Assembly: GCF_000321415.2 (NCBI RefSeq)
Contig: NC_019902.2
Location: 3,624,501 to 3,688,500, forward strand
Origin: Thioalkalivibrio nitratireducens DSM 14787
Lineage (GTDB): Bacteria > Pseudomonadota > Gammaproteobacteria > Ectothiorhodospirales > Ectothiorhodospiraceae
DNA: 64,000 nt
Reading direction: 5' to 3'
A model generated the notes under the pieces. It was not told the origin of the DNA. It searched no databases and worked only from the letters and a program-made list of their open reading frames with translations. This document shows positions 5,184 to 60,176 of the stretch, piece after piece. Position 1 is the first letter of the stretch, and each line of letters starts with the position of its first letter. The position numbers and the translations under genes are program-made.

Positions 5184-7541
5184 TCATGACACAACGGCCT
5201 CCGCAGCAATTCGGTAACCCATTGCCCGGTACCCCCGCTGGCGCTTGTCCCACATCCGCAGCACCGCCGGGTGGCCGGTATCCACGACGTCGATAATCCG
5301 CACGTCCGTCTTGCTGGCGTGCTCCCGGTGGAGGCGCCCAGCGTATTGCTGCAACGTACCCTTCCAGGAAACTGGCATGGCCAGCACCAGTGTATCGAGC
5401 GGTGGGTGGTCAAATCCCTCCCCGACCAGTTTTCCGGTAGCCAAAAGGACGCGCGGTGCATCGGGAGGCAGTGCGTTCAGATCGGCGATGAGGGCGGCCC
5501 GCTGTTTCTTTGACATCCGGCCGTGCAGCATGAACGGTTCAGGGATTTGACACGCCAAAGCAGCCATAATTGCGGCTAGGTGGTCGGTGCGCTCGGTTAA
5601 CACCAACACCTTACGACCCTGCTCAAACGCTTCTTTGATTACAATTGCAATGGCATCAGTCCGCGCCTGATCGTTAGCAAGATACCGGAACACGTCCTGA
5701 ATACCGGCCGTGGCCGGCAGTTCGATCCGGGTGCACCGTGAGTGTGGAAGAACCTTCAGGTCGTGAGGCGCTCCAAGTGGTTGGGCGGCGGTGTATCGAA
5801 TCGGCCCACATTGCATGAAGATGATCGGCTGTTGCCCATCTCGGCGGATGGGTGTTGCGGTAAGGCCGAGCACATACTTCGCCTTCGTTCGCTTCAGGAT
5901 GGCATCGAAGGAGACGGCGCCAACGTGGTGACACTCATCCACAATGACTTGGCCATAGTTTTCAACCAAGGAGTTGACCTCGCCCTGCCGGGATAGCGAC
6001 TGCATCACGGCTATGTCGATCTTGCCGGCGGGTTTGGCCTTCCCGCCGCTGATGGTACCGACCACCCCCTTGCCCTGGCCTAGAAAAACCTGCAGGCGCG
6101 CCTGCCACTGCTTGAGCAGCTCGGTGCGGTGCACCAGCACCAGCGTGTTGACGCCCCGGCGCGCGACCATCGCGGCGGCGGTGACTGTCTTGCCAAAGGC
6201 GATCGGAGCGCACAGCACGCCGGTATCATGCTGCAGCATGGCCGAGACGGCAGCCTCCTGATCGAGTCGCAGGGTTCCGAGGAAACTCACTGCAATGGCT
6301 TCACCACCAAAGCGCTCGTCGCGGAGATCACAGGAAATGCTGTTCTCACGCAGGAGGTCTAATGCGGCGTCGAGGCAGCCACGTGGTAAGGCGATATGCT
6401 GCGGATAGTTCTCCGCGCAGCCAATCACGCGCGGTTTATCCCACACCGATATCCGCATGGCCTGGGCCTTGTAGAACTCGGGGTTCTGGAAGGCGGCCAG
6501 ACGGACCAGGCGGTTGGCCAGTACCTGCGGCAGTTGGGCCTTTTCGAAGTAGACGAGATTGGCCAGCGTCACGGTCAGCGAGGTGGGCATAGTGCCCCCC
6601 AGCTTCTTGGGAGACGAACCCCGCTTCCACGGCGTGGCCAAGTCCTCATCGTCGATGAAGGTGACGTCCAATGGATGAATGCCACCGGTGGCCCGCAGGA
6701 TCGTGGGTTCGATGTCGTGCGCCGCCATCAGTTGGATGCCCGCCAGAAAGCCCCATTGATTGGCATACGGGCGCAGATCGGCATCGACGAATACGCTGCA
6801 GCCGTTTTCGCGAGGTTGCTTCTGCAGTGGCAGGGCGATCAGGTTGCCGAACCCGCCCTTGGGCATCGTGTCTTGATTCGGGAATAGCCGGTCATAGGAC
6901 TTCAGCTTCAGTTGTCGGGTGCGCGAGCAGGTGTGGCTGATGATGGCCGTGCCCAAGCGCCGAGCATCGCGTGCTGCGACGCGACTGGCGAAGAACACCC
7001 ACGCGTGCGCACCGTCGCCTGATCTGGAAATCTCCAACGCAGTCGGCACACCCAGTTCTTCGCAAGACTGCACGAAGGCGCGGGCATCATCGCGCCAATC
7101 GGCTTCGTCAAAATCGGCCGCCAAGAAGTAGCAGGTGTCGTCTTCCAGCAGTGGATAGACGCCGACCGTGTGCTCACCGGCCAGATGGTCGTAGATTACG
7201 GCATCGGAAAGTGGGATCAACAAACGATTGCTGCAGTTTCCGCACTTGATGCGTGGCTTTTCGCAGACCCCAGCTCGCCACTCATTCGCGCAGGCGGGCG
7301 CGTACCCGGCCTTGTCGCTGGTCTTGCTCTCCCAACGGATGGGGTAGACGTCCGTGCGCCCACGGAATAGGCGCCGGAACAGTGCGACTTTTTCAGCGGT
7401 GGAAAATTTGGACGATTCTGGCTCTCGAACCGCTGTAATGGGTGCCCACGGCAAACGCCATTCAATGCCGTGGGCTTCCAGCAACGCAATCAGTCGGGCG
7501 TTCTCGACCTGCAATGCGGCCAATTCACCGTGATCCGCCAT
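5184..7541 (-). CDS. TOTE-type AEP primase-SF2 helicase fusion
   Basis: A protein of about 785 residues. From the chosen ATG: a short leucine coiled coil (residues 5-25), a cysteine cluster (C84, C93, C100, C103), and an archaeo-eukaryotic primase domain with the D-x-D motif LAADFDEADW (D143, D145) and H179 in SGDGAHAWVFF. A superfamily 2 helicase follows, with Walker A FGKT (449-452), DECHH (535-539) and motif III GLTATP, then a helicase C-terminal domain ending with QQYAGRLHRE. This arrangement is that of the TOTE conflict-system primase-helicases, thought to act against invading DNA. The Walker A reads PIAFGKT, not the common PTGFGKT. A GTG start at 7583 is the alternative. Confidence 0.75.
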   Translation of the reverse strand: MADHGELAALQVENARLIALLEAHGIEWRLPWAPITAVREPESSKFSTAEKVALFRRLFRGRTDVYPIRWESKTSDKAGYAPACANEWRAGVCEKPRIKCGNCSNRLLIPLSDAVIYDHLAGEHTVGVYPLLEDDTCYFLAADFDEADWRDDARAFVQSCEELGVPTALEISRSGDGAHAWVFFASRVAARDARRLGTAIISHTCSRTRQLKLKSYDRLFPNQDTMPKGGFGNLIALPLQKQPRENGCSVFVDADLRPYANQWGFLAGIQLMAAHDIEPTILRATGGIHPLDVTFIDDEDLATPWKRGSSPKKLGGTMPTSLTVTLANLVYFEKAQLPQVLANRLVRLAAFQNPEFYKAQAMRISVWDKPRVIGCAENYPQHIALPRGCLDAALDLLRENSISCDLRDERFGGEAIAVSFLGTLRLDQEAAVSAMLQHDTGVLCAPIAFGKTVTAAAMVARRGVNTLVLVHRTELLKQWQARLQVFLGQGKGVVGTISGGKAKPAGKIDIAVMQSLSRQGEVNSLVENYGQVIVDECHHVGAVSFDAILKRTKAKYVLGLTATPIRRDGQQPIIFMQCGPIRYTAAQPLGAPHDLKVLPHSRCTRIELPATAGIQDVFRYLANDQARTDAIAIVIKEAFEQGRKVLVLTERTDHLAAIMAALACQIPEPFMLHGRMSKKQRAALIADLNALPPDAPRVLLATGKLVGEGFDHPPLDTLVLAMPVSWKGTLQQYAGRLHREHASKTDVRIIDVVDTGHPAVLRMWDKRQRGYRAMGYRIAAEAVVS

Positions 7542-7583
7542 CGAATCCACACTCAGCCAGAAGATTTGGTTATCCCCGCCCAC

Positions 7584-15769: not shown

Positions 15770-17218
15770 ATGAACGCCATCGGCTTCATTGAAGGCCCTC
15801 TGGACGCCCCGCTACCGTGGAACCGGATCAACTGGGACACGGTACGTCGGAACGTCAGCCGATTACAAGCCCGTATCGTGAAGGCGGTGCGCGCAGGCCG
15901 GTGGCACCGGGTTCGGTCGCTACAGCGCCTGCTTCGGAGGTCGCTCGGGGCCAAGTTATTGGCCGTTCGGCGGGTGACCTCCAATCAAGGGAAGAATACG
16001 GCTGGGATCGACGGCATCGTCCTGAAAACTCCAGCTCAGAAGTGGCAGCAAGCCCAAGCGTTACACCATCCAGACTATCGGCCCCTGCCCGTCAGACGGA
16101 TCTACATCCCCAAGAAGAATGGAAAGAAAAGAGCCCTCGGTATCCCGGCGCAATCGGACCGGGCCGAACAGGCTCTCGATCTGCTGGCACTGGACCCGGT
16201 GTCGGAAACCCTCGCGGATTCGTGCTCTTACGGCTTCCGGAAAGAACGAACCCCAAAGGACGCGATGCAGCGATGCTTCCTGTCACTGGCGAAACGTTCC
16301 AGCGCGGAATGGATTCTGGAAGGGGACATCCGGGCGTGCTTCGATGCCTTCGATCACGACTGGCTCATCGAGCACACCCCAACCGATCAAGGACGACTCC
16401 GGGCATGGCTGAAATCCGGGTTCATGGAGCAGAGACGCATCTTCCCCACGGAACGGGGCACGGCCCAAGGGGGCATCATTTCCCCGACGGTCGCGAACAT
16501 GGTTCTGGACGGATTGGAAGGCCGCATCCGCGCCCGCTTCAAGCGGCGCGGCAAGGTCAACCTGATCCGGTTCGCGGATGACTTCGTGATCACCGGCGAA
16601 AGCCGGGCGATCCTCGAAAACGATGTCACGCCATTGGTCACGGAATTTCTGCACGAACGCGGACTGGTCCTCGCTCCGGAAAAGACCCGCATCGTCCATA
16701 TCGACGACGGGTTCGACTTCCTCGGGTTCCGCTTCCGCAAGTACGGTGGAAAGCTTCTGATCAAGCCGTCACGTGCCAGCATCAGCCACATTCACGGGAA
16801 AGTGAAGACGATCCTCCAAACCGGCCAGCAATGGCCGCAGTCGGAGATCATCCGAACCCTCAACCCCGTTCTCCGGGGGTGGGGAAACTATTACCGGAAC
16901 GTGGCCAGCAAAGCGGTCCTTCTGGGACTCGACCAACGCATCTGGCGCCTGACCTGGAACTGGGCGCGTCGCCGGCATCCACAGAAGAACCACGAGTGGA
17001 TCCGGAAACGATACTTCCCCCGCCAAGGCTCGCGGCGGTGGATCTTCAACGACGGCTGTCACACTCTGGTCTCGCTCGGCTACATCCCCATTCGGCGGCA
17101 TGTGCTCGTGCGTTCCGGAACCAACCCGTACGATCCGCAGGACGCGGATTATTTCCGGCAACGGCGCGCGGCAAACCGCGCGTATCCGAGCCACGATGGG
17201 TTGGCCAATGTCCGGTGA
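15770..17218 (+). CDS. ltrA: Group II intron reverse transcriptase/maturase
   Basis: A 482-residue intron-encoded protein. RT motifs in order: RIYIPKKNGKKRALGIP, a palm segment with EGDIRACFDAFDH, GTAQGGIISPTVANMVL, and the catalytic box RFADDFVITG (the Y of YADD replaced by F, which occurs in this family), then the maturase X domain with LRGWGNYYRN. No HNH cysteine motif is visible at the C-terminus. The protein would assist splicing and reverse-transcribe the intron into new DNA sites. The reading frame is intact, so mobility is plausible. Confidence 0.9.
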   Translation: MNAIGFIEGPLDAPLPWNRINWDTVRRNVSRLQARIVKAVRAGRWHRVRSLQRLLRRSLGAKLLAVRRVTSNQGKNTAGIDGIVLKTPAQKWQQAQALHHPDYRPLPVRRIYIPKKNGKKRALGIPAQSDRAEQALDLLALDPVSETLADSCSYGFRKERTPKDAMQRCFLSLAKRSSAEWILEGDIRACFDAFDHDWLIEHTPTDQGRLRAWLKSGFMEQRRIFPTERGTAQGGIISPTVANMVLDGLEGRIRARFKRRGKVNLIRFADDFVITGESRAILENDVTPLVTEFLHERGLVLAPEKTRIVHIDDGFDFLGFRFRKYGGKLLIKPSRASISHIHGKVKTILQTGQQWPQSEIIRTLNPVLRGWGNYYRNVASKAVLLGLDQRIWRLTWNWARRRHPQKNHEWIRKRYFPRQGSRRWIFNDGCHTLVSLGYIPIRRHVLVRSGTNPYDPQDADYFRQRRAANRAYPSHDGLANVR

Positions 17219-17349: not shown

Positions 17350-17580
17350 TCGTACTCGTACTCCGGCGCGGGCTAAGCGCAGGGTCTGCCGGCGGAGCAT
17401 ACCTCGGCGTCGATGCCGATACCGAATCCTCGGACCAACCCGAAGGCCGGTGCGCTTGGGCGATGGGGCCGGGACGGCGGGTTCGCACCTGCTGTCTATG
17501 AAGACGATACGCCGTGACGGTCTACTCTCGGTTGGAAAGGGGGCACTCCGGCATCCCCGGCGACGGCCCGGTCTGGGTCG
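17350..17580 (-). repeat. 231-bp dispersed repeat, copy A (interrupted by intron and recombinase element)
   Basis: Similar by eye (roughly 85-90%) to 34555-34786. On the minus strand both copies encode the same C-terminal peptide, FGLVRGFGI-I-D..CSAG followed by PAPEYEYD; copy B reads on to QCW and a stop. Copy A has an in-frame stop near 17376 and is bounded exactly by the group II intron (left) and a tyrosine-recombinase element (right). Parent protein not recognised. Confidence 0.7.
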
Positions 17581-28186: not shown

Positions 28187-28573
28187 CTAATCATCTTTCT
28201 TCTGCGGACCATGGAGGCTTTGATCGTCAAGAGGGCCCTCGACGTCTTTAACCACAGTGCCGTCGGTAAGTGTCACCTTTTTCTTGTAGGTCCTTGCACG
28301 TTTATCAACCACTTGCTCGATATGAGCAACCGTTCCGTCTACGCTCAGGCTCCCGCCCACCTTCATAGTTGAGCTGGTTCCCCTTGCATCTTTTGCCTTC
28401 ATCGACATTTGGTCAAAACAGGTAACCTTCTTCTCAACGGTAACCTCGGCGCGAATGCCAGAGCCGCCGCAGGACGGACATGGTTGGTGCTCTGCGGCCA
28501 CGAAACGACGGGTGTCTCCCTCTGAATCGAAAAGAAGGTCGCCGCATTTGCCGCAATAAAAGGTGCCTGTCAT
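28187..28573 (-). CDS. Zinc-ribbon/DnaJ-type cysteine-pair protein, cassette-like
   Basis: A 128-residue protein with an N-terminal YCGKCG pair and a CPSCGGSG pair, the latter resembling the DnaJ zinc-finger repeat, so one zinc site is likely. A beta-rich segment (STMKVGGSLSVDG, KKKVTLTDGTVVKDV) follows. Family not recognised. The ATG lies seven bases after a GTTGGGCCTAAC boundary box and the stop abuts an attC-like site, so gene plus site form a compact cassette of about 450 bp. Confidence 0.6.
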   Translation of the reverse strand: MTGTFYCGKCGDLLFDSEGDTRRFVAAEHQPCPSCGGSGIRAEVTVEKKVTCFDQMSMKAKDARGTSSTMKVGGSLSVDGTVAHIEQVVDKRARTYKKKVTLTDGTVVKDVEGPLDDQSLHGPQKKDD

Positions 28574-28740
28574 GTCGTTAGGCCCAACGGCATATTAGCC
28601 CGCGTCGTCAGTATTGGTAACAGTGCTCGCGCGGCCGATTGTCTGAGCGGCCGATTCAGCATAGCACTGAAGCGCGACAGCGATTTCCGGGCAGGATGCC
28701 CGCCACTCGTAACAACGATGGTTCATATGTCAGTCTTTCC

Positions 28741-30118
28741 CTAGAAGGCGGCCAGCCCGCGCAGGTCCATCTTCTCCAGATAGGCGATCTTCTCGACCTC
28801 GGCTGCCGATCCCGAGACCTGCACCAGTACGCCGCCCACCATGCCCTGAATCTCCCCATCCGGGCTAACTGCAAAGTTGACTCGGTTGATCCGGCGCACC
28901 TGGCCCATCATCCCCGTCAACGCGGGATTCGCGAACATCGCCGCCATCGGACTTTCCGCCAGCAGTTGGATGTCGACCTGCACCCCGTCCGGGCTGGCGT
29001 ACGTTGCTTCGGCGGTCATGCCGCCGCCAAACATCATCGCCGCGTGTGTCTGGGTTTCACCGAGCGTTCGGGTCCACTCCGGAAGCGCTTCCGGAAGGAA
29101 CTGTGCCAACCCGGCGGCATGGGTGTTGGCGGCGCGATTCCAAGCCGCGCGCGCAGCTTCCGGGGTGAACCCTTGCTCCTTACCATACCGGCGGACGAAT
29201 TCGTCGCTCACCAAGCCGGTAGACCATCTTTGCCGAGTGCAGACCGTCGGCCAGCAAGGCATCGGTCGCCTCGAAAGTGAGGGTCAGCCTGAAGACACGC
29301 TGGACCGCCTTGAGTTCGGTCCGGAAGGACGGATCCTTCGCGAGCGAACCAAACTCATCCTCGCGTTCGCTCAGAAACTCGTCCACCGATGTGCGCAGCA
29401 GGTCGAACTCCGCTTGCTTTTCGATTATTCGTCCCAGTTCCTTGGCATGCCTGATGCCACGAACCTGTTCATTGGCCAGCGCCCGCTCAAGCCCGCCGGC
29501 GAAAGCCGCTGTGGGGAACGCCTCGCGAAACTGGCGCTCCAGCATCTTCGCGGAGATCTCTGCCTCCGGGACCTCCGTTCCGGTCGGATCCTTGAGGTCA
29601 AGCGGGAGTGTCACTTCGCGCGCTTGGTGCTTGCGCTGGACCAGATCCACTCGTTCGTGCGTGCTGCGCTTGGTGAGCGTGCGGATATCCTCCGGCCGGC
29701 GGACATTGAACACCTCCTTGATCATTCTGACCACGGAGAAGTCTCCCCGCGTCAAGTCAGCCAGTTGATTTGAGGCGCACAGGTCCGCAACCTCTGCGAC
29801 CTCGAAAGTGGGGGCCTGCTCCAGGACCGCCAGAAACTCCGGTGTCAAGGCCCGATGCTGCTGGAACAACCGCGCAAACCTGGCCTGTTTGTCTGCACCG
29901 TCGATCCCGGCGTCTTGCAGCGCCACCCTGAGAAACGTCCCGGCCGCCTTCTGTTGGGCGACGAATTGCACAGCGTATTCGGCATCCGCGCGCGCAGCGG
30001 GGACGTCACCCGCTTCGTATGCCTCAAGCGCGGAGCGCAGCGCATCCGCAACCTCATCGGCCATCGCTGGGGCACACGGCATGAACAGAACAACGAGGCA
30101 TAGGAATAAGCGGCGCAT
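28741..30118 (-). pseudogene. Secreted-protein gene with a Tc-toxin-like segment spliced in; one frameshift
   Basis: The 5' part encodes a signal peptide (MRRLFLCLVVLFMPCAPAMA) and DALRSALEAYEAGDVPAARADAEYAV...QQKAAG. The 3' part encodes GLAQFLPEALPEWTRTLG through MDLRGLAAF. Together these match a short exported protein family of about 200 residues. Between them lie about 260 residues (RFARLFQQHRALTPEFLAVL, FRLTLTFEATDALLADGLHS, EFVRRYGKEQGFTPEAARAA) resembling the N-terminal region of TcA/VRP1-type toxin proteins. An extra base near 29208 shifts frame within the insert. GCSGCCGGG occurs at both junctions. AGAGGGG precedes the ATG. Confidence 0.65.
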
Positions 30119-30776
30119 GATGGGAATCCCCTCTCGTTTTCTGGCCTTGTCTGACTCGAATCCTAGACGATCGAGCGCCCGAAAGAGGCACCGCTGAATG
30201 ATCCCAGGGACGTGAAGCGGTATTGGGTAATGTGGCCACCTAAAACACGGCACTTCGCCGAGATCCAGAAAGCCTCTGGTCATCGGACCTGCCCCAGTGG
30301 CACCATCACGCTCGAGCGAAACGCCGGCTCTCGACCCGATCATGGCGGTCCACTTTGTATTGGGCTGCAGCCGCTCAACCGTCTAGGCTAATTGCCCGCT
30401 CGGGGTCCGATGCTGTCCCAAGGTCCTGGATCTACCGGGGTCCCCCACAGGGGTATCTTGGTACAGAAAGGTCCCCGGCGGCATGGCGCCCCCCGACCTC
30501 GACGAACTGTGTTTGGGTCTGCTGTGGACGCTCGGCTGGGCGAATCGCCGGTGTGGCCAAGAACAGCTACAGCCGAATCACCGATTTCGGCGACGGCATC
30601 GTGCGGCCGGCGATGCTCGAGACCACCAGTCCGCTGCAGCGGAAGGGGCCGCAGGCCGCCATCCGCCATCCGGCGCCGGGGTTTCCGCAGGCGCCGGGAG
30701 GCGCGAACGCCGCGTGGCGGATGACGCTGCGCTCTTCCGTACGGGTTACCCGGCACGCGACACGGGTTTTGTCACG
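30119..30776. other. Intergenic region with a dispersed repeat copy
   Basis: No intact gene. A plus-strand stretch near 30552-30640 reads VAKNSYSRITDFGDGIVRPA and may be a protein remnant. 30648-30751 is a diverged copy of the palindromic repeat at 59935-60049 (shared CCGCCATCCGGCGCC and GTGGCGGATGACGCTGCGCT). Confidence 0.5.
30648..30751. repeat. Dispersed palindromic repeat, copy 1
   Basis: Shares the left CATCCGCCATCCGGCGCC and right TGGCGGATGACGCTGCGCT blocks with 59935-60049; the outer GTAGGGCGG tips are degraded here. Confidence 0.7.
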
Positions 30777-32378
30777 TCAATCGCGGCCGACGCGGAACCT
30801 TTGCGGATCGATTCCGTGCTTCTTCAGCTTCTGATGCACTGCACGAGGACTGATTCCAATCTGCCGCGCGACTGCGCTGACGTTTCCGCCATTTTCCTCG
30901 AGTGCCAGCCGGATCAGCTGCCCCTCGGTATGCATGGCTGCCTGCTTCGTAACGTCTCTCAGACTGACCACCTGGGCTGCACCTTGCGAGCGACGGCGTG
31001 CCGGCTGTCCATCGAGCGCCAGGGACTCGATCACGCGACCCCGGGAGAACAGAAAGCTGCGCTCCAGAACGTTTTCCAGTTCACGTACGTTGCCCGGCCA
31101 TGGATGCACCATCATCTGTGTCCAGGCCCGCTCCCCCAGGATCTTGCGGGTTCCGCCATAGCGCGCCGCCAGGCGCCGCAGGAAACTCTGCGTCAGTGCC
31201 GTCAGGTCGTCACGCCGGTCTCGTAACGGGGGAATGACGATGGGCACCACGTTCAACCGGTAATACAGGTCCTGCCGGAACTGGCCAGCGGCCACGCGAT
31301 CGGCGAGTTCCTGGTTCGATGCCGCGACGATACGTACGTTCGCGCGCATCGTGTGTCGGCCGCCGACACGTTCGAACTCGTTCCCCTGCAGAACCCTCAG
31401 CAGCTTCGCCTGTGCGGAGATCGGCAGGCTGTCAATCTCGTCGAGGAACAGCGTACCCCCCTCCGCACGCTCGAAATAGCCGTGGTGGACATCGTATGCT
31501 CCAGTGAAGGCCCCTTTCTCGTGTCCGAACAACGCGCTTTCGATCAGCTCCTGCGGAATGGCGCCGCAATTGACGGCAACGAGTTCATGGGCGTTCCGGT
31601 CGCTCAGCGTGTGCACCAGGCGCGCGATCACCTCTTTGCCGACACCGGTCTCGCCGCTGATCAGGACCGTCGCCAGCGTGGGCGCGACCAGTTCAGCGAC
31701 GTCGATCGCGCGCTGCATCGCCGCGCTCTCGGCGACGATCTGCTGGCCACGAGCATCCGTCCGAGGCTGCTCCGCAGAGGTGGTGGCACACCAGGTCTGC
31801 GCGGCATGGGCGGTGGCCTGGACGCGGGCTTTGCCGCTCCTGGGTCGACTGACCAGAACCCCTTCCTCGTACCGATACTCGTCGCCTTCGATGTCGGCCG
31901 ACCGGGTCGGATCGACATGGATGCAGACCTCGCAGTGCGAATCACCGACGGCGATCCGACGGCGCAGGTCCACCTTGGCGTAGCCGAAGTTCCGTGCAGC
32001 GATTCCACCGAAAACGCTCGCAGTCATGCGGCACAGCTCCGGGGCATTCTGAACCGTGGTACCGAATGGACAGCGCGAATTGACGACGCGCACCATGCCC
32101 GGATCGCCGGACGCCCGCGAGAAGTTGCCGCCGATCTGGTTCTTGATGCCGAGGATAATGTCGGTGTACCCGTCGAAGTCGATCGGGCCATCAAGGCCGA
32201 GCTGTTGGCGACAGATCTGCTCGAGGCAGGGCCCCGCCGTCAGCCCCAGCGACTCGACGTAGCCCACGCTGGTCTCACATTCACGGCAACCCATCTGGCC
32301 TGCGGTCCGCAGGCTTTGGGTGACAAACATCTGGAGAAAACCGACCGGGCTGAGCGTCGGCGAGTTCTGCTTCGGCAC
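30777..32378 (-). CDS. Sigma-54-dependent activator with MetOD1-like sensor domain
   Basis: A 533-residue enhancer-binding protein. The N-terminal sensor (residues about 20-180) has SRCPFG, PELCRMTASVFGGIAARNFG and HCEVCIHV, resembling the Metanogen output domain 1 (MetOD1), a cysteine-bearing ligand or redox sensor. The AAA+ domain has GETGVGKE, GHEKGAFTGAYD (the sigma-54-contacting GAFTGA loop), GGTLFLDEID and RQDLYYRLNVVP. A C-terminal Fis helix-turn-helix is NVSAVARQIGISPRAVHQKL. It is the last of four minus-strand genes behind a -24/-12 promoter, the natural target for this protein. Confidence 0.85.
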   Translation of the reverse strand: MPKQNSPTLSPVGFLQMFVTQSLRTAGQMGCRECETSVGYVESLGLTAGPCLEQICRQQLGLDGPIDFDGYTDIILGIKNQIGGNFSRASGDPGMVRVVNSRCPFGTTVQNAPELCRMTASVFGGIAARNFGYAKVDLRRRIAVGDSHCEVCIHVDPTRSADIEGDEYRYEEGVLVSRPRSGKARVQATAHAAQTWCATTSAEQPRTDARGQQIVAESAAMQRAIDVAELVAPTLATVLISGETGVGKEVIARLVHTLSDRNAHELVAVNCGAIPQELIESALFGHEKGAFTGAYDVHHGYFERAEGGTLFLDEIDSLPISAQAKLLRVLQGNEFERVGGRHTMRANVRIVAASNQELADRVAAGQFRQDLYYRLNVVPIVIPPLRDRRDDLTALTQSFLRRLAARYGGTRKILGERAWTQMMVHPWPGNVRELENVLERSFLFSRGRVIESLALDGQPARRRSQGAAQVVSLRDVTKQAAMHTEGQLIRLALEENGGNVSAVARQIGISPRAVHQKLKKHGIDPQRFRVGRD

Positions 32379-32462
32379 GTTCCTGACCTCGCTTCGAGAA
32401 GACCCTCGATCTACAGAACACCTGCCGCATCCGACCCCGTGCAGGCGCGCGGAAAGCCGATC

Positions 32463-32891
32463 TCAGCTGGTCGTGCAGCCGTTTTCACCGCAGTGTCGAC
32501 AATAGCGACAGAAGTAGGCGTTCGCGGAATGGGCGGCAACCAGAACCACCCCGCCCGCAACAGTTGCGATGATCTCGGCAGATTCACTCAACAGACCGTC
32601 AGGCGTGGTCACCCCCAGTGAAATCAGCACGAAACCCGCGATGGCCGTCGCGACCACTTGCCACCGCCGATGTCGCAGATACCCGGGCCAGAAGGCCAAC
32701 AGGCCAATGCCAAGGATCGCCAGCGCGAGCAGGGCGTGCGTCGGCTCTTCGAGAGCCCCGAGTACTGGCAGGAAGACCACCAGTGCCGGGGTCACCAAGC
32801 AGTGCAACACACACAGCGTGGATGCGCCGATACCGGCCAGGTCCCACGGTCGGCGTTGCAACGTTTCGCTTACGAGTATAGTCACGAACAT
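32463..32891 (-). CDS. MerC-like small membrane protein
   Basis: A 142-residue protein with four hydrophobic helices: GIGASTLCVLHCLVTPALVV, LLALAILGIGLLAFW, VVATAIAGFVLISLG and IATVAGGVVLVAAHS. The C-x3-H-C of helix 1 recalls MerC mercury transporters, and the C-terminus is rich in Cys (YFCRYCRHCGENGC). In its operon context, between a CS2-hydrolase-like gene and a sigma-54 activator, mercury transport is only one option; import of a small neutral or thiol-reactive sulfur compound, or metal handling, are others. Confidence 0.6.
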   Translation of the reverse strand: MFVTILVSETLQRRPWDLAGIGASTLCVLHCLVTPALVVFLPVLGALEEPTHALLALAILGIGLLAFWPGYLRHRRWQVVATAIAGFVLISLGVTTPDGLLSESAEIIATVAGGVVLVAAHSANAYFCRYCRHCGENGCTTS

Positions 32892-32935
32892 TCTCCCTCA
32901 TGGTTTCTGTCGTCGACGGCGAGAGCCGCCATCGG

Positions 32936-33151
32936 TCAGGGGCAGCAGCGGCAGCCCTTGCCACACTGCGGCAAGGACCGGGCCGCCCGCTCTCGGCCAC
33001 GTGCCATGGCACCGTGTACAGCCGGCGCGGCCAAAATGACACGCCCGGTTCTCGACCCGCACAGCGGACAAGGCGGGGCGGGCGCCAGGATGGCGTGCGT
33101 GGCCTCGAGACGATTCCCGCAGGTTGAACATTGATAGTCGTAGGTCGGCAT
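32936..33151 (-). CDS. FmdB-type zinc-ribbon protein
   Basis: A 71-residue protein starting MPTYDYQCSTCGNRLEA with a second CPLCGS pair, the FmdB/CxxC-CxxC single-strand zinc-ribbon family first noted as regulators beside formamidase genes. The C-terminus ends in QCGKGCRCCP, adding five cysteines. An upstream in-frame start at 33166 lacks family character. It sits 79 bases after the hydrolase-like gene and 44 before the MerC-like gene in the same direction, so it is co-transcribed. Confidence 0.75.
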   Translation of the reverse strand: MPTYDYQCSTCGNRLEATHAILAPAPPCPLCGSRTGRVILAAPAVHGAMARGRERAARSLPQCGKGCRCCP

Positions 33152-33230
33152 CAGCAGCCCTCCCACAGGCGGTTCGTCGACCGGACGGCCCGGTCGCGCG
33201 AGGCGCCGGGCCGGACAATGGGAACGTGGT

Positions 33231-33884
33231 TCAGGCCCAGCGTGGCGGCTGTGCGCCCTGGACCCCCATGGTGCCGGTCGAGTACTGGGTGCGCGCCCTT
33301 GCCTCCTTGTCGGTGGTGGGTGCGCGCAGCCGCCGGAACTCGGTCTCCCAGACCCAGCCGCTGATCACGATGTCGTCCGGAATCAGCGGATGGTTCTTGA
33401 GGTATTCGACCGTTTTCAGACAGGTCTCATCGACGTCGTCCATCATGCCGATCCACTTTCCGAACGCTCCCGGTGCCAGGCTCAGTTCGGGCAGGGACGG
33501 GTCGACCGGCACGCTGTCGACATCGATCCCCTTGGCCTGCAGTGCCGCTACAAGGTCATTGCCGTTGGCCGAGAGCATTCCGCACCCCGTGTGCTGCAGG
33601 ACCACGATCTCCCTGGTGCCGAAGAAATTGATCGTCAGCATCGCGGAGCGGATGGCATCACCGGTCACGATGCCACCGGCGTTGCGAAACAAATGCGCAT
33701 CTCCGCCACCGACCGGCGTGTCGGCGCGTATTCCCAGCGCCTCGTCGACGGGCAAACGTTCGTCCATGCAGGCAAGCACCCAGAGGCGCCGCATGTTGGG
33801 CCCCTCGGCTCCATACTGACGGCGGTTCTCCCACTTGGTGTATTCGTCGACTCGCGCCGTGAGTTGCTCTTTCAATGTCGTCAT
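33231..33884 (-). CDS. Beta-carbonic-anhydrase-fold protein resembling CS2/COS hydrolases
   Basis: A 217-residue beta-carbonic-anhydrase-fold enzyme. Zinc ligands are C39, H98 and C101, with the D41-R43 dyad in CMDER. FRNAGGIVTGDAIRS and TINFFGTREIVVL follow. The remainder (SPDPSLPE-like VDPSLPELS, FGKWIGMMDDV, LKNHPLIPDDIVISGWVWE, RRLRAP) matches my memory of carbon disulfide hydrolase from Acidianus far better than canonical carbonic anhydrases. It would convert CS2 and/or COS to H2S and CO2. It is the first gene of the operon, with an adjacent sigma-54 promoter. Activity is an inference; a plain carbonic anhydrase is the alternative. The GGAGG-type site GGGAGGAAG supports the ATG. Confidence 0.7.
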   Translation of the reverse strand: MTTLKEQLTARVDEYTKWENRRQYGAEGPNMRRLWVLACMDERLPVDEALGIRADTPVGGGDAHLFRNAGGIVTGDAIRSAMLTINFFGTREIVVLQHTGCGMLSANGNDLVAALQAKGIDVDSVPVDPSLPELSLAPGAFGKWIGMMDDVDETCLKTVEYLKNHPLIPDDIVISGWVWETEFRRLRAPTTDKEARARTQYSTGTMGVQGAQPPRWA

Positions 33885-33952
33885 CAGTGCTTCCTCCCGG
33901 GTGAATTCTTCTGCCGCGGTACGCAATCGGTTGCGCCCCGTGCCCAAGGTTC

Positions 33953-33969
33953 AAGCAATCAGCGCGCCA
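33953..33969 (-). promoter_or_regulatory. Sigma-54 (-24/-12) promoter of the CS2-hydrolase-like operon
   Basis: Minus strand TGGCGCG-CTGA-TTGCT against the consensus TGGCACG-N4-TTGCW, one mismatch and exact spacing. It lies about 70 bases upstream of the start codon. The fourth gene of the operon encodes a GAFTGA-containing sigma-54 activator, which makes a chance match less likely. Confidence 0.7.
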
Positions 33970-33989
33970 GGATGGCTTTTTCTGTACAA

Positions 33990-34554
33990 ACAATCAGTTA
34001 CCATCTTCCACGAAATGGCGGGCAGGGCTCTCGTGTCCCGCCTGTTCGCGGCTGTCCCGATTAAGCCCCGGATTTCCTGAAAGATTTGTCCTCAGAAGCG
34101 AGATTTCGCAGTGCGAACCAACGCTTCGCGGCCGCGCCTCCGGCAACGGCACCATCGGGAACCTGCGAGGCCCGTCCGGGAACGCGTTCGACGGCCTCCA
34201 TGACGCATCCGCTCTCGGCCTGCAGGGGTCAACGCGCGCTACACCTGGTGGTGAACGCTTCCGGTGGGAATGGACCCGATCGCGCGGCGCCTGCACTCGC
34301 CCGCAGGCCCAGGGACTGAGCCCAGACGAACTGTGTTCGGCAGGGGAGAGGGAATGGGACCGTCGCTCCTTGCCGTGGCAGCGCGCCGCAGCCGCGCCCC
34401 TGGAGGTTCGCGAGCACAGGGTGGCAACGGATCGTTGCGCCTGGACCGCTCTTAAGCCGTCATACAGGGGGAACCCGATCCCCGCTGCCACGAACGGTGT
34501 CCCGAGCGAGCCGATGTCCGGACAGAATCCATCGGAGACCCCTTACCAGCACTG
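33990..34554. other. Intergenic region upstream of the sigma-54 promoter
   Basis: No gene recognised; open frames are shadows. The first 150 bases would be where the activator binds; TGTCCCG occurs twice (34037, 34054), but I do not claim a binding site. Confidence 0.3.
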
Positions 34555-34786
34555 GTCGTACTCGTACTCCGGCGCGGGCTGGGCGTAGGGTTTGCCGGCG
34601 GAGCATGCCTCGACGTCGATGGCGATCCCGAATCCTCGGACCAACCCGAAGGCCCGTGCGCTTGGGCGATGGGGGCCGGGACGGCGGGTTTGCCCCTGCC
34701 GTCTATGAAGACGATACGCCGTAGCGGTCTGCTCTCCGCTGGAAAGGGGGCACTCGGGCGTCCCCGGCGACCGTCCGGTGTGGGTC
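34555..34786 (-). repeat. Dispersed repeat, copy B (uninterrupted)
   Basis: Similar to 17350-17580. On the minus strand it ends a coding frame FGLVRGFGIAIDVEACSAG...PAPEYEYDQCW followed by TAA near 34542. The upstream part of that gene is missing, and one frame change is needed to connect it to RIVFIDGRGKPAVPAP. The product is not recognised. The group II intron sits in copy A at the D codon of EYEYD. Confidence 0.7.
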
Positions 34787-34938
34787 GGTTCCGCCGCGTC
34801 GCGCCCTATCGACTAAACCAGCTCGGAGAGGTCATAGAGACCCCTTCTTGCATCACATAGGTGCCGGCACGCGGATACCAGCGCCCGCGTCGTCATACGG
34901 GGCAAGGCGACACGGCGACCACCGAAATTACACGCCTG
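34787..34938. other. Short non-coding stretch
   Basis: Nothing recognised. It is downstream of the hypothetical gene at 34939 on the minus strand; no clear terminator seen. Confidence 0.3.
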
Positions 34939-35856
34939 TCAGCTGTTTGCCTCGGAGTGTGGTCGGCTCTCGGGCACATCTGGCAAGCCCCTGAGGAAGA
35001 TCACATCGTGGCGGTGGTTGACGTACGCCTCGAACACGAACTCGGGCCAGTAGTCTCGCGCGGGACCCCACTTCATGTGCCGTTCGTAGGCGGCGGTCCG
35101 CTTCTCGGCCGTTTCGTGCGGCAACGTCCGCTCAAAGTAGGCCAGCCAGTCGCGCTCGCCCGGGTCGATCAACACGTAGGGAGTCGTGAAGACGACGTGT
35201 TCGTCCAAGCCGGCAAACGGGGGCGGGAACACACGCGCATACCAGAGTTCCCCAAACCGTCCCTGATAACCCGACGGACAGATAGCCTTGCAGATGCGGT
35301 TGGTCACCAGCTCGCGCAGGAGAATCTTGTCGTTGTCGAGACCCTCGTGGACGTATACCGCCATCCGGGAGTCCTGCATGAGGCCGATCACCCGCAGCAG
35401 ATCCTCGTGCATGCCGAACATCTTCCCGACCGCCATGGTCGTCGTCCCGAGGGTCTCCCGGCCCAGCCCGATACCGGCGTCGAAGAACGCCCAGCAGGTG
35501 AAGAACGAGAGGGTGAGCGGGCTCATCGGTGGGCCGCTCGGCGCGTACTCGTCCTGGGCGTTTTCGAATAGCCGGGCGAAACGGTCCATCTCGGGCAGCA
35601 TCATGAGTTGTTCTGCCATCACCGAGGTCTGATTCTGGGCGTACACGTAGATCGCGTGGGCAGGATGGTAGTCAGCCAGCGTCTCACGACTCGCGACGGT
35701 CTTCTGCAGGGCCTCGGCGTTCTTACTGCCTTCCCTTACGGCACTGAGATCGACGACTTTCGCTCCAGCGTAGCCGCGCATCTTCCTGATGAGCCGGTCG
35801 GCGATGGGCCGGCGTGTGGCGGCCTTCTTGGCGGTCGGCTTCATCTTCCTGGTCAT
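34939..35856 (-). CDS. Conserved hypothetical protein, about 305 residues
   Basis: Not recognised. The N-terminal 35 residues are very basic (KMKPTAKKAATRRPIADRL). The rest is mixed helical, with LTLSFFTCWAFFDAGIGLG as the most hydrophobic segment and a tyrosine- and tryptophan-rich C-terminal third (GELWYARVFPPPF, DYWPEFVFEAYVNHRHD). It reads like a soluble protein. The ATG at 35856 is preferred over a TTG two codons earlier. It is third of three same-strand genes (with 35875-37080 and 37147-37779) with gaps of 18 and 66 bases, probably one transcript. Confidence 0.6.
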   Translation of the reverse strand: MTRKMKPTAKKAATRRPIADRLIRKMRGYAGAKVVDLSAVREGSKNAEALQKTVASRETLADYHPAHAIYVYAQNQTSVMAEQLMMLPEMDRFARLFENAQDEYAPSGPPMSPLTLSFFTCWAFFDAGIGLGRETLGTTTMAVGKMFGMHEDLLRVIGLMQDSRMAVYVHEGLDNDKILLRELVTNRICKAICPSGYQGRFGELWYARVFPPPFAGLDEHVVFTTPYVLIDPGERDWLAYFERTLPHETAEKRTAAYERHMKWGPARDYWPEFVFEAYVNHRHDVIFLRGLPDVPESRPHSEANS

Positions 35857-35874
35857 GGGCAACGCAGCCAGAGT

Positions 35875-37080
35875 TCAGTCTTCATCAATTACCCATGCCG
35901 AGCGCGCGCGGACGTCGGGCAGGAGGAAACGGATGCCCTGGTTGTCCGACGGGTTCATCCAGAGCAGGCGCTCGAACACCTGCTCGGTCTCTTCCCAGCG
36001 CTTGAGCCGCCAAAGGCATAGCCCGTAGCCCTGCATGCAGCGCAGGAAGGGCCGATTGTCGATGAGGCCCCAGGCGAGCACACCGTCGAAGTCCGCGCCC
36101 AACGACGCCTCGCCGATGCGAACACCGACCTCGTAGTGGTTGATCGCCCAGTCAGGACTGCTCTGGAAATGCAGGTTGCCCAGATGCGCATGGGCGTCGA
36201 GGCAGCGAAGATCCACCTCGAGCAGATGGGCGAGAATGTCCTGCGCTCCGGCCGTGTCGCCCGCCTGCTTCAGGTCATTCGCCGCAAGGATCGGGTCGGA
36301 GTCCAAGTCATCCGGATTGCGGCCCGGCAGCACCTGCTCCATCTCAAACATCGGTCGCGGTCCGCGCGCGATGATCGGCTTGGCCCAGTCGTCGATGGGC
36401 TGGTCTCCCTCGCCCCAGTACGCTTCGGCTGGGTTCCAGGCTCCGAAGTCGTTCAGCGCAAGGGGAATGAGGCCCAGAGCGGCGGCGTCGATGCGAGCGG
36501 AAATGATCTTCCCGGACAGGTACGGGTGGCCGTTGTGGCGCCAGTACTTGTTCGCCTGCACCGTGACGACCTGGCCGGGCACCACCCCGTACAGGGATCC
36601 CACGCGCAGGGTGATCACCCGTTCGCTCCCGATAAGCCGGCAGCGCGCAGCCCGCTCTTTCACCGCAACCACGACCAGATCCACGGGCTTCGCGAGGTCG
36701 ATGTCCTCGTCGCTCGCCTTGTGGCGCCGCACTTTCAACCCTGAGCCGCTTGCTGGCTGCTGGGCCCCGGCTGGCTGCACACCGAGCCAGGCGCAGTACG
36801 CAGCAAAATAGGGATAGCCGGCGGCGTCGGGTGCGAGCTGGATATCGGCAAAGGTGACGCGATGCTCGGTGCCGTCCTCGCGAAGGCAGCGGGCAGTCAG
36901 ACCCCGGCGGGGATTGCCATCGTAGTCGACGGCGATGAGCGAGAGCGGCTCCCCGACGACGTGAACATCCATCGGCAGATTAAGGCCCTCCTCAATGCCT
37001 TCACGCAACGCCCATAGCTGCTCATCGTCGCCATGAGCATCGACGAGCATCCCTTCCAGCAGGGTATCTACCTCCGTCAC
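35875..37080 (-). CDS. Hypothetical protein with C-terminal TPR-like helices
   Basis: A 401-residue protein. The N-terminal half is beta-rich and acidic (LPMDVHVVGEPLSLIAVDYD, GLTARCLREDG). The middle contains VITLRVGSLYGVVPGQVVTV, suggestive of a small beta-barrel. The C-terminal third has TPR-like repeats (ANDLKQAGDTAGAQDILAHL, DAHAHLGNLHFQSSPDWAI, GYGLCLWRLKRWEETEQVF). No catalytic motif is evident. A scaffold or protein-interaction role is likely. Middle gene of a three-gene cluster of unknown function. Confidence 0.6.
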   Translation of the reverse strand: MTEVDTLLEGMLVDAHGDDEQLWALREGIEEGLNLPMDVHVVGEPLSLIAVDYDGNPRRGLTARCLREDGTEHRVTFADIQLAPDAAGYPYFAAYCAWLGVQPAGAQQPASGSGLKVRRHKASDEDIDLAKPVDLVVVAVKERAARCRLIGSERVITLRVGSLYGVVPGQVVTVQANKYWRHNGHPYLSGKIISARIDAAALGLIPLALNDFGAWNPAEAYWGEGDQPIDDWAKPIIARGPRPMFEMEQVLPGRNPDDLDSDPILAANDLKQAGDTAGAQDILAHLLEVDLRCLDAHAHLGNLHFQSSPDWAINHYEVGVRIGEASLGADFDGVLAWGLIDNRPFLRCMQGYGLCLWRLKRWEETEQVFERLLWMNPSDNQGIRFLLPDVRARSAWVIDED

Positions 37081-37146
37081 GTCACCGCCCGAGGGGTTGG
37101 AGTCGTCGAAAGCGACGCAGAGCGCAAACGAAACGTTACCGTGTTC

Positions 37147-37779
37147 TTACTCATCGGATGCCACAAGAAAATTGAAGTTTCCGGTGCCGCATACCCGGTC
37201 GAGCTGCTTGACGATGCGCGTCGCCTGCGGAACCGACTCGCTCGGCCCACGAATATAGAAGGGCTTCCCATGCTGTCCATAGGCGAACGCTGTCGGGCAG
37301 GCTTGGGCATCGACGTCGCAAAAGATTCCCTTCGCGTTCCGATAGTCGGCATGGGGAGAAAACCCCAGCGTATCGGCATAGCGCACGGCGCCCTCGATCA
37401 GCTTTCGAACACACGCCGGGTGCAGGCTTTCGAACTCCTGGAGCCCGTTTATTTCGATGAACCTGGACTTCAGCCTGCGTTCGTAGTCGAGCGCGCTCCT
37501 GACGTCGAATAACGCGTCTTTCACTCCCAGGCAGAAGACATCGACAAGGAACACGCTGGCTGCGATCATTCCCTCTGGTGTCCGTCGCGCCCAAATGACG
37601 GAGCCCAAACCGGTATCGAACAAAGCGTCAGGCACCAGGCATTCGTGCACGGGGAACTGGGCGTAACTCGACGCCACCGGCATCGCGGCTGCAACATCCC
37701 CCGCGGGTCGGGCCGTCAGCTTCCGTTTCTTTTTCTTGTTCGCCAGTTTCTTCTGGCGCCGTTGCTCGCTGATCGCCAT
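37147..37779 (-). CDS. Conserved hypothetical protein, 210 residues
   Basis: Not recognised. It starts with a lysine-rich tail (RRQKKLANKKKKRKL), then VHECLVPDALFDTGLGSVIW and MIAASVFLVDVFCLGVKDA, a helical region, a segment with aspartates (HADYRNAKGIFCDVDAQACP) and ends FNFLVASDE. No signal peptide or membrane helix. First gene of a three-gene minus-strand cluster. Confidence 0.55.
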   Translation of the reverse strand: MAISEQRRQKKLANKKKKRKLTARPAGDVAAAMPVASSYAQFPVHECLVPDALFDTGLGSVIWARRTPEGMIAASVFLVDVFCLGVKDALFDVRSALDYERRLKSRFIEINGLQEFESLHPACVRKLIEGAVRYADTLGFSPHADYRNAKGIFCDVDAQACPTAFAYGQHGKPFYIRGPSESVPQATRIVKQLDRVCGTGNFNFLVASDE

Positions 37780-38415: not shown

Positions 38416-39798
38416 TCAGGCGGCCTGGGCGGCCGGTGCGGGCCGGACGAGTTCGAGGGGTTTCCCAGCGATGGCAGCCTCGGTCAGACGGCGCACGAAG
38501 GCAAGCGGCTCGTGTCCTTGCAGTTCGCCGGTGCGGAACAGGGACAGCAGCAGGGCGTGCGTTTCGGCACCCGCTTCGGAGCGGTTCTGCTGGCAGACCT
38601 TGCGGGTGAGCACGGGCTTGCGCATCTCTTGCTCGCCGCGGTTGTTGGTGGGCGGCAGGTCATCATGATCCAGGAAGGTCAGCAGTTCGCCGCGGAAGTT
38701 GCCCAGGCGTTTGACCAAGCGCATGGCATCTTTATCCTGGAACGAGGTGGCGATCAGTTCGTCGAGGCGTTGGTGCAGGCGTCGTTTGCGGCGTTGGTAG
38801 ACGCTCGGTTCCAGTTCGGGGCGGCGCAGCTTCAGCCGGATCGCATCCTGGAACAGGCGTTGGATGCGGCGCCGGGTGTCGCGCCAGGGAATCGAGGTAT
38901 TGCGTTGATCGACCCGGCGCAGTTCGGCGAACAAGTGGAACAGGCAGCGTTGTTTGGCCCAGGTCTCGACCGCGTTGTAGGCGGCGTAGAAGTCACAGAC
39001 CAGCAAACCGTCGAAGATTTCGCCCAGAACGGCCAAGACCACCGCGGCATTGCGCCGGCGTTCGATCCGGAAATAGGCCAGGTCTTCGGTGCAGAAGGCC
39101 CAGAGCCAGTGGGTGGTGCCGTTGACCCGCCAGCCGGTTTCGTCGGCGTGCAGAACACCGGCCTGGCGGATGGCCTGCTCCAGCTGCACCCCGTAGGGCG
39201 CCAGGGTCTCCCCGAGCCGGATCCAGGACTGGGTGAGTCCGCCGGCACTGACGCGCAGCCCGAACAGCTGCTGGAGAATGGTGACCAAGTTGCCCACGCT
39301 GATGCCGAGACGGTAATGCAGCCAGGCGCTGTAGATGACGAGGTTCAGGCCGAGCGTCGCGCGCGGCAGCGCCGCAGTGACCGTGGGCGTGACGATCTTG
39401 CGGCAGTGACCACACCAGTGGCCGTGGACGGTGTGCGCATGGGTCTTGACGGTTCCCGGTTCCAGATCCTCGATGAGGCGGGTGTGGGAGCGGACGGCGG
39501 GCCCGACCGGGTGTCCGCAGTCAGGACAGGTCTCGAGCCGGTGTTCCACCTGCGCGTCGATGGTCTGCGGTACCGGCCGGCAAGCCCCGTGATGACCCGC
39601 CTTGCGCCCGGGCTTGCGTCGGCGCCGTGGCGCCGCCGGCTTCTGGAACGAGGCGATCGTCGCCGAGGGTTGCAGCGGGTCTGCGTCGGGGGCCGACTGC
39701 CGGTCCCACTGCTCGGCCTTGTGCGCGAGTTCGAGGATCTTGGCCACGGCCACCTCGCGCGGCCCGTCGAGCAGCGCACAGGCCTCCTCGCGGGTCAT
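38416..39798 (-). CDS. IS66-family DDE transposase
   Basis: A 460-residue IS66 TnpC-type transposase. The N-terminal zinc-binding part has CPDCGHPVG and WCGHCRKIV pairs. The DDE core has LHADETGWRVNG, FDGLLVCDFYAAYN, CLFHLFAEL and LPPTNNRGEQEMR (N-N-x-x-E, the last catalytic glutamate). The start is taken at MTREEACALLDG (39798), where the preceding DUF4338 frame ends with an ATGG overlap; the longer frame upstream has no family character. Reading frame intact. Confidence 0.85.
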   Translation of the reverse strand: MTREEACALLDGPREVAVAKILELAHKAEQWDRQSAPDADPLQPSATIASFQKPAAPRRRRKPGRKAGHHGACRPVPQTIDAQVEHRLETCPDCGHPVGPAVRSHTRLIEDLEPGTVKTHAHTVHGHWCGHCRKIVTPTVTAALPRATLGLNLVIYSAWLHYRLGISVGNLVTILQQLFGLRVSAGGLTQSWIRLGETLAPYGVQLEQAIRQAGVLHADETGWRVNGTTHWLWAFCTEDLAYFRIERRRNAAVVLAVLGEIFDGLLVCDFYAAYNAVETWAKQRCLFHLFAELRRVDQRNTSIPWRDTRRRIQRLFQDAIRLKLRRPELEPSVYQRRKRRLHQRLDELIATSFQDKDAMRLVKRLGNFRGELLTFLDHDDLPPTNNRGEQEMRKPVLTRKVCQQNRSEAGAETHALLLSLFRTGELQGHEPLAFVRRLTEAAIAGKPLELVRPAPAAQAA

Positions 39799-40698
39799 GG
39801 TTCCAGCAGCGCCGGCCGCCAGCGGCGCGTCAGCGGCCGCACCCAGACGTCCTTGGACACGGCATGTGCCCGGTAGGCATTGCCGCGCTTGGCATGGCCC
39901 GGGTCTGGCCCAGGCACTGCCAGTTGGCCGCCCGATAGCAGGTGCCGGCAAAGCGCGCCGGATCGACGAAGGTCTCCGCCAGCACGATGCGTTGCCCCAC
40001 CCGGGCCTGCCACGCGGCGGCAAGCCCGCGCAGCGACTGCCCCAGCACCTTCGAGGCCAGATGCTCTACACGCACCCACGGCAGGATCAGAAAGCGGACG
40101 TTGTTCACCACCCCGACCAGACGCTGGCGCCGCAGCTCGGGCGTCCAGCCGATCCAGCGGTCCCGACAATCGACCTTCCAGGCGGCACTGGCCAACCCAG
40201 GCAGGCCACCACCTGCCCGTCGAGCCACACCAATTGCTTGAGGTACGCGCCCACTAGCTTGGGACGCCCCAGGTAATGGTGGTGATGAACCAGATAATCC
40301 CAGAGGTAGCGCTCAGGTCCCTCAGCCGTGCGGATCTCGAGCACCCCATAGGCATCCACCCGCCCGGCCAGCGGCCGCTCCTCGAACAGCGGCCGTTGCC
40401 GATAATCCGGGACCGCGTGATTGTTCTTCTCTTGCAGCCGCGGCGGCAACTGGATGTGCCCGGCCTCTTCCAGGCGCAGCAGCAGATCCCGCGCGGCGTA
40501 TTCCTTGAGCGCCCCGTTCGCCTGCCGCCAGTCCCACCCCTCACACAGTCGTCGGGCGATCGCGCTGCGACCGCGGGCCGCTCCCTGTGCCGTGGCCGCC
40601 TGCGCGATCTGCGCGCGAATCGTCGCGAGATCCTCGGCACGCACATCGCGGCCTCGGTAACGCAGCAGCACCCTGTCGCTCTGTCCCATGGGCACCAC
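39795..40698 (-). pseudogene. DUF4338 (DruA-like) gene of the IS66-type element, two frameshifts
   Basis: Three consecutive frames carry one DUF4338 protein: 40698 to about 40200 (ATAQGAARGRSAIARRLCEG, HHHHYLGRPKLVGAYLKQL), then to about 39905 (WKVDCRDRWIGWTPELRRQR, VVNNVRFLILPWVRVEHLA, AETFVDPARFAGTCYRAANW), then to 39795 (YRAHAVSKDVWVRPL). It overlaps the transposase start. The domain matches DruA of Druantia, but its place between IS ends mirrors the IS4-type element at 146-2569. Confidence 0.75.
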
Positions 40699-59934: not shown

Positions 59935-60049
59935 GTAGGGCGGAAAAGGCCGAAGGCCGTCATCCGCCATCCGGCGCCCCGGGGATGCTGCGGGCGCCTG
60001 GGCACTGGGAACGCCGTGTGGCGGATGACGCTGCGCTATTCCGCCCTAC
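59935..60049. repeat. Dispersed palindromic repeat, copy 2 (MITE-like)
   Basis: Outer arms GTAGGGCGGAAAAGG and, at the right end, ATTCCGCCCTAC; inner arms GTCATCCGCCA and TGGCGGATGAC. 115 bp, largely self-complementary. A diverged copy is at 30648-30751. Confidence 0.75.
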
Positions 60050-60176
60050 GGGACTAACCTGGTGTTCCGAAAGGCGTGATTATTCGGGAGCCCTGTTGCC
60101 TGCGGTGGCCGTGCCCACTCGAGCGGCGCTTGCGGTTAGAATAGCGGGCTATTTGGAACAACCGGTTACCACGGCC

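Follow-up and report, generated by a model that had tools for sequence, protein, structure and literature searches.

A four-gene operon headed by a CS2 hydrolase-type gene

The subject of this analysis is a gene cluster in a 64,000-nucleotide stretch of the Thioalkalivibrio nitratireducens DSM 14787 genome, hereafter the window (positions 3624501-3688500 of a 4,002,350-base contig). Its four minus-strand genes, at window positions 30777-33884, encode a relative of carbon disulfide (CS2) hydrolase, a zinc ribbon of the FmdB type, a membrane protein resembling MerC and an activator of the sigma-54 kind. The gaps between them are 79, 44 and 84 bases, which confirms the co-directional layout with 44-84-base spacing that an earlier note on this DNA had described. 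At 33969, the end coordinate given in that note, a good promoter of the -24/-12 type begins.

The first gene (33231..33884) encodes a protein of 217 residues, assigned by phmmer against PDB, profile, tree, Foldseek and alignments to the type of hydrolases acting on CS2 and carbonyl sulfide (COS), as a clade-D homologue of the beta-carbonic anhydrases (beta-CAs). The second (32936..33151) encodes a ribbon of 71 residues with two CxxC motifs, matched by Zn_ribbon_8 (E 5.2e-12) and TIGR02605 (E 3.7e-12), an APAxHGxMARGR motif and the Cys-rich tail CGKGCRCCP. The third product (32463..32891; 142 residues; PF03203, E 1.3e-24) also has a Cys-rich C-terminal tail. The fourth (30777..32378) is an activator of 533 residues consisting of a MetOD1/V4R-like sensor domain (31779..32378; PF18546, E 1.3e-9), an AAA+ sigma-54 interaction domain (residues 214-380, 31239..31739; Sigma54_activat, PF00158, E 9.8e-68) and a Fis-type helix-turn-helix (HTH) domain (residues 485-521, 30816..30926; HTH_8, PF02954, E 2.2e-10). 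With GAFTGA in the AAA+ domain and the HTH at the C-terminus, it has the make-up of a sigma-54 enhancer-binding protein. The extra tail on the ribbon, the tailed MerC-like protein and a GAFTGA activator with a Cys-bearing, MetOD1-like sensor had all been claimed from the sequence, and each of them is confirmed.

The hydrolase belongs with CS2 hydrolase rather than carbonic anhydrase

The closest PDB match of the 217-residue protein by phmmer is the CS2 hydrolase of Acidianus sp. A1-3 (3TEN/3TEO; E 2e-46 for 3TEN), followed by the carbonic anhydrases 3las (3.5e-21), 5ztp (1.1e-19) and Rv1284 (1.9e-16) and by the COS hydrolase of Thiobacillus thioparus THI115 (3VQJ, 5.4e-16). A 16-row profile, which itself included a piece of 3TEN, returned 3TEN at 3.6e-80 and the runner-up at 7.9e-32. 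A 54-row maximum-likelihood tree splits 44 CS2-hydrolase-type sequences including 3TEN from ten carbonic anhydrases and COS hydrolases with support 82/99 (ultrafast bootstrap/SH-aLRT, as throughout), and a Foldseek search with the predicted structure also ranks 3TEN first. Tree, profile and Foldseek thus agree that the protein does not fall inside the canonical carbonic anhydrases, and the suspicion that it lies nearer to CS2 hydrolase is upheld. By sequence it is a CS2-hydrolase-type beta-CA homologue with putative conversion of CS2 or COS.

The residues C39, H98 and C101, by analogy the likely zinc ligands, are invariant in the 16-row alignment and in a second of 38 rows, as is the D41-R43 pair, and these zinc-site residues are kept between the window protein and 3TEN. 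So is a Phe-Phe motif (F87-F88), which recurs in the hydrolases of all 96 loci described below; the accessible part of a survey of Thioalkalivibrio terms it characteristic of CS2 hydrolase (Berben 2019, PMC6382920). The window protein departs from 3TEN in a TPVGGG insert, a 2-residue insert and a longer C-terminal tail. In 2013 Smeulders reportedly described the CS2 hydrolase of Acidithiobacillus thiooxidans S1p as having an inserted TPAGGG, two further inserted residues (PD) and an extended C-terminal tail; additions of all three kinds are found in the window protein. The COS hydrolase 3VQJ shares the beta-CA fold and, in the sections available of another source, is assigned to clade D (PMC8209446). 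It is a second beta-CA homologue in the same genome (L002, G000:C1:2353586-2353828), not the window protein, that clusters with 3VQJ (100/98). As a separate observation, the hydrolase of a Mycobacterium paragordonae plasmid (L016:8001-8843) has a C-terminal extension that reads by eye like a YHS metal-binding domain.

The gene itself has been listed before. Within its consulted part, the survey reports a putative CS2 hydrolase with Phe-Phe in Tv. nitratireducens ALEN 2, the only one in 75 Thioalkalivibrio genomes (PMC6382920). This is very probably the window's own gene, because it occurs once among those 75 genomes and in one of 47 genomes of the window organism's family here. The same part of the account mentions no operon, promoter, regulator or partner, and our literature search, judged mostly from lists of matching papers and largely outside subscription papers, found no description of the regulation or co-expressed partners of CS2/COS hydrolase genes. 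The earlier note knew of no description of the gene set, and none was found in this search for the set or its regulation; the hydrolase had already been listed. Enzyme type and gene are known; the conserved module, its control sites, the class of sensor and the FmdB partner are new. That a known type of enzyme has here a new regulatory and partner module is well supported.

Hydrolase, FmdB and activator recur as a module

A single scan of 84,980 species genomes gave 229 stretches with the search pattern, 224 of which encode relatives of the hydrolase. Distant relatives are under-sampled in what follows, since the best 80 of the 224 were kept. Adding the window, 12 whole-genome loci and three plasmid records brings the set to 96 loci, all picked by the hydrolase; over the span -300 to +1500, 89 are distinct. 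FmdB is present in 90 and the sensor of the activator in 88, and FmdB, sensor, a -24/-12 promoter and a GAA-N7-TTC dyad occur jointly in 83. Taken alone, the 80 scan loci show 78 with FmdB, 76 with the sensor, 17 with MerC, two with a ZIP transporter and 72 with FmdB, sensor, promoter and dyad together. In 52 loci the activator gene follows the hydrolase on the same strand (in three more it does so beyond 3.5 kb), and in 28 it is upstream and divergent, as in Nitrosomonas; rarer positions are upstream on the same strand (two) and downstream on the opposite strand (three). In eight loci it was not found: L016 (the Mycobacterium plasmid), L017 (a haloarchaeon), L028, L029, L104 (Pseudonocardia), L076, L064 and L041. 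Three of these, L104, L064 and L076, are not clean absences, because little downstream sequence is left (415, 1025 and 2804 bases).

This neighbourhood comparison, which the earlier note had recommended, shows that the gene set recurs widely; in these loci and in the 369-genome count below, the arrangement is far above chance, kinship being uncorrected. Of the four genes it named, hydrolase, FmdB and activator recur as a core and MerC is an optional, clade-specific addition. MerC was rejected as a member of the common module: it occurs in 21 of the 96 loci and among them is confined to the window's clade, where all 14 tree rows have it (99/96), against none of 24 rows in the sister clade (97/92). 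A ZIP transporter takes the MerC slot in three loci. The FmdB tail comes in two forms, CGKGCRCCP-like in aligned MerC-bearing loci and mostly a His-containing HGPGCxC elsewhere. Seventeen plasmid records have a match, two of them at 60-80% identity (a Methylobacter plasmid with the module and the Mycobacterium plasmid with a solitary gene); on viral contigs no encoded relative was found.

A sigma-54 promoter and a tandem dyad precede the hydrolase

The predicted sigma-54 promoter of the window, TGGCGCGCTGATTGCTT (33969..33953 on the minus strand; TGGCGCG, CTGA and TTGCTT), scores 12 of 13 consensus positions, with its GG at 33968/33967 and its GC at 33956/33955. We counted as a site any GG-N10-GC that agrees with the consensus at 10 or more of 13 positions and lies no further than 350 bp upstream of the hydrolase. 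Of the 96 loci, 85 have one, compared with 55 of 1920 Markov shuffles.

Further upstream lies a predicted enhancer, or upstream activating sequence (UAS), GAAGCGTTGGTTCGCACTGCGAAATCTCGCTTC (34095..34127, minus strand), made of two tandem GAA-N7-TTC dyads 20 bp apart and situated 126-158 bp upstream of the promoter. In the loci from which the motif was derived, GAA-N7-TTC occurs 107 times against 5.7 expected from shuffles (66 regions after a crude redundancy filter). The next spacing among N0-N19, N12, reaches 15 against 6.3, and the inverse arrangement TTC-N7-GAA 56 against 5.8. At least one dyad lies within 500 bp in 89 of the 96 loci, compared with 64 of 480 shuffles. The full four-element tandem array is perfect in 30 loci and has one mismatch in 39 (69 in total); the shuffles gave none and four of 480, respectively. 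Its start lies upstream of the promoter by about 158 bp among the window's kin and by 97-98 bp in most Nitrosomonas-type loci. The perfect array at 34095-34127 is the only match in the 4.0 Mb genome. With promoter and dyad so conserved, the proposed sigma-54 control holds at the level of sequence, and the activator presumably binds the dyads. A recognition-helix motif was seen in 36 of 83 regulators in its first version and in 80 of 83 in a looser one, and we did not rely on it.

The FmdB subfamily follows the hydrolase across genomes

Each component was also counted across the class, in a sample of 369 genomes. Of these, 13 hold the hydrolase and 14 the activator, counted as the sensor within a long open reading frame (ORF) of 521-631 residues at E < 1e-60; 11 genomes share both. 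A model of the FmdB subfamily, built from 39 FmdB proteins, picks out the same 11 genomes and no others at E <= 1e-20; the next best reaches 2e-12. Fisher tests against the hydrolase over the 369 genomes, which ignore kinship, give p = 2e-19 for FmdB and 8e-17 for the activator. Since the FmdB subfamily is absent from the three genomes with the activator alone, it follows the hydrolase rather than the sensor.

In those three genomes (G181, G293 and G294), the activator lies near another type of beta-CA resembling that of the Synechococcus plasmid pANL. The gene is directly divergent from the activator in G293 (L147) and G294 (L149), and one methyltransferase-like gene intervenes in G181 (L148). 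GAFTGA and the CPFG Cys region are seen in the G181 and G293 regulators; in the G294 regulator GAFTGA was not picked up by our script. Beside the other beta-CA, G181 and G293 have two tandem dyads and G294 has one with a second, imperfect copy; promoter-like sites come after them. The G181 locus also has a cupin that by eye resembles the one in the Methylobacter operon.

A three-cysteine sensor of predicted V4R-like fold

All 37 sensor domains scanned match MetOD1. Every one of the 84 aligned sensors, a set without four partial rows, has Cys103, Cys116 and Cys149. The sensor model (pLDDT 85.5) matches Bet3/TRAPP (best E 1.2e-4) and H-NOX in fold and would place the domain in the V4R-like class; a PDB sequence search gave no solved homologue below E 0.7. 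The phenol-responsive activators PoxR, DmpR and MopR have the same order of V4R-like sensor, AAA+ domain and Fis-type HTH, and the sensory domain of PoxR is among the Foldseek matches. The window's activator differs from them in its MetOD1-type sensor and its presumed target, a beta-CA-type hydrolase. In a census of signalling proteins from archaea, the cluster of three conserved cysteines in MetOD1 is noted to recur in ATC hydrolase, an enzyme that cleaves a C-S bond, and in the V4R domains of PoxR and MopR (PMC5847659). By analogy the window sensor likely binds a small ligand, because this cluster is common to MetOD1 and the V4R domains of PoxR and MopR.

Stand-alone proteins resembling the sensor (172-242 residues) were also seen at eleven loci (L150-L160); in ten of them, L154 being unclear, the gene immediately precedes a large ORF whose product looks by eye like a PAS-type sensor kinase. 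They appear to form a separate two-gene signalling pair.

A probable inducible operon for CS2 hydrolysis

The explanation that best fits these comparisons is an inducible operon for the hydrolysis of CS2, and probably of COS too, under a sigma-54 activator; we put its probability at roughly 0.7. The V4R-like sensor would detect CS2 gas or a product made from it, and the activator, seated at the two tandem GAA-N7-TTC dyads, would then act on the -24/-12 promoter by remodelling the sigma-54 RNA polymerase there. The resulting products would be the hydrolase (CS2 + 2 H2O -> CO2 + 2 H2S) along with a dedicated FmdB-type ribbon and, in the window's clade, the MerC-like membrane protein. Provision or insertion of zinc during sulfide production may be the task of the ribbon and of the membrane protein, which is MerC here and ZIP in some methanotrophs. 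Genes for sulfide handling near the hydrolase fit an enzyme that produces H2S. Between -6 and +8 kb of the 96 loci, recurring clusters include BLH-phosphatase plus Pyr_redox_2 (20), which we take to be SQR-like, DsrE (9), TauE (9) and metallo-beta-lactamase (6), as raw counts without chance expectation, from clusters with one representative each checked by Pfam and members that may share a single domain.

A sharper version makes the activator a dedicated CS2/COS sensor whose three-Cys, V4R-like pocket binds the gas or an adduct and which rules a small regulon of beta-CA-type hydrolases through the tandem GAA-N7-TTC enhancer. In it, FmdB is the hydrolase-specific metal-insertion partner; sulfur oxidisers feed on CS2, and ammonia oxidisers and methanotrophs survive it. 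We offer this version tentatively, as something we would sooner doubt than assert.

Several observations weigh against a CS2 operon of this kind. Three of the 14 activators adjoin a beta-CA of the other type, which leaves room for a signal other than CS2. Hydrolases also occur without the module, clearly in L016, L017, L028 and L029 and probably in L104 and L076, which lie on short contigs; FmdB and activator are both missing from these six. The bootstrap of 82 on the hydrolase branch makes the placement good but not final, because several branches are long and the PDB rows are incomplete. The structure model, of moderate confidence (pLDDT 77), reaches a TM-score of 0.5 to 3TEN and adds little beyond that ranking. 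The match of the sensor to the phenol sensor PoxR is weak (E 9e-3, TM 0.51), and the dyad was discovered and counted in the same loci. As far as the consulted part of the Thioalkalivibrio survey goes, growth on CS2 was not tested for Tv. nitratireducens, and CS2 use within the genus has been reported for Tv. paradoxus alone, at low rates, a species that does not have the hydrolase gene (PMC6382920).

Other readings differ mainly in the role or substrate that they assign to the enzyme. In ammonia oxidisers and methanotrophs, the module may serve detoxification, guarding copper monooxygenases from CS2, an idea that we regard as arguable but short of favoured. The title of a 1990 paper names inhibition of ammonia monooxygenase (AMO) by CS2, and in the family of G366, probably Nitrosomonadaceae judging from three AMO copies and the locus layout, 35 of 125 genomes carry the hydrolase, against 13 of 369 in the class sample. 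Sulfide-handling genes lie near the hydrolase in several of these genomes. On the other hand, 90 of the 125 do without it, and no association of hydrolase and AMO was found across the class (1 of 10 AMO-bearing genomes against 12 of 359 others, p 0.30). The idea does not extend to the window's organism, in which no match to AMO was found; for this sulfur oxidiser, use of CS2-derived sulfide as an electron donor is the simpler guess.

COS could instead be the natural substrate, with activity on CS2 incidental, which we consider rather unlikely. CS2 hydrolases are said, again in the 2013 work of Smeulders, to convert COS too. Against this reading, the same genome has in L002 a separate close homologue of the Thiobacillus COS hydrolase, and the window protein keeps the Phe-Phe motif ascribed to CS2 hydrolase in the available part of the Thioalkalivibrio survey (PMC6382920).

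An operon for a regulated carbonic anhydrase, serving inorganic carbon or pH with a sensor that reads CO2, bicarbonate or a metal, is improbable. It would suit the beta-CA fold, the zinc-site residues, the three genomes in which the same type of activator stands by a second type of beta-CA, and the many carriers that are autotrophs, judged by name. Yet the best carbonic anhydrase entry in PDB scores 25 orders of magnitude below 3TEN, and the CS2 hydrolases of Acidianus and A. thiooxidans and the T. thioparus COS hydrolase show negligible or no CO2 hydration in the consulted portion of the source (PMC8209446). Mercury or zinc homeostasis, with the CA-like protein secondary, would account for MerC, ZIP, the FmdB ribbon, the Cys-rich tails and the three-Cys cluster of the sensor, and is very improbable given MerC in 21 and ZIP in three of the 96 hydrolase-picked loci, and no other mer gene among ten window proteins around the operon (28187-37779) nor any among eight neighbour proteins of other loci, no genome-wide search having been made.

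Genomic setting

The operon for CS2 hydrolysis proposed here may have been acquired. Dispersed repeats flank it just outside both ends, one pair at 17350-17580 and 34556-34787 (90% identity over 232 columns) and a second at 30639-30745 and 59940-60052 (81% over 113 columns). These repeats and the absence of the hydrolase gene from the other 46 genomes of the family hint at horizontal gain. Elsewhere in the window are an IS66-family transposase upstream of the operon (38416-40023), a group II intron reverse transcriptase/maturase (15770-17218) and a TOTE conflict-system protein with an AEP-TOTE primase domain and a helicase (5184-7583).

Implications

A defined activator, enhancer motif and promoter would provide a reporter for CS2 and COS and a means of spotting hydrolases and their regulons in metagenomes. 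To our knowledge, the role of the zinc-ribbon FmdB family is poorly known, and one of its members would here gain a single, specific partner enzyme. CS2 being an inhibitor of AMO, the module also offers a testable reason for the presence of a CS2 hydrolase in some nitrifiers and methanotrophs.

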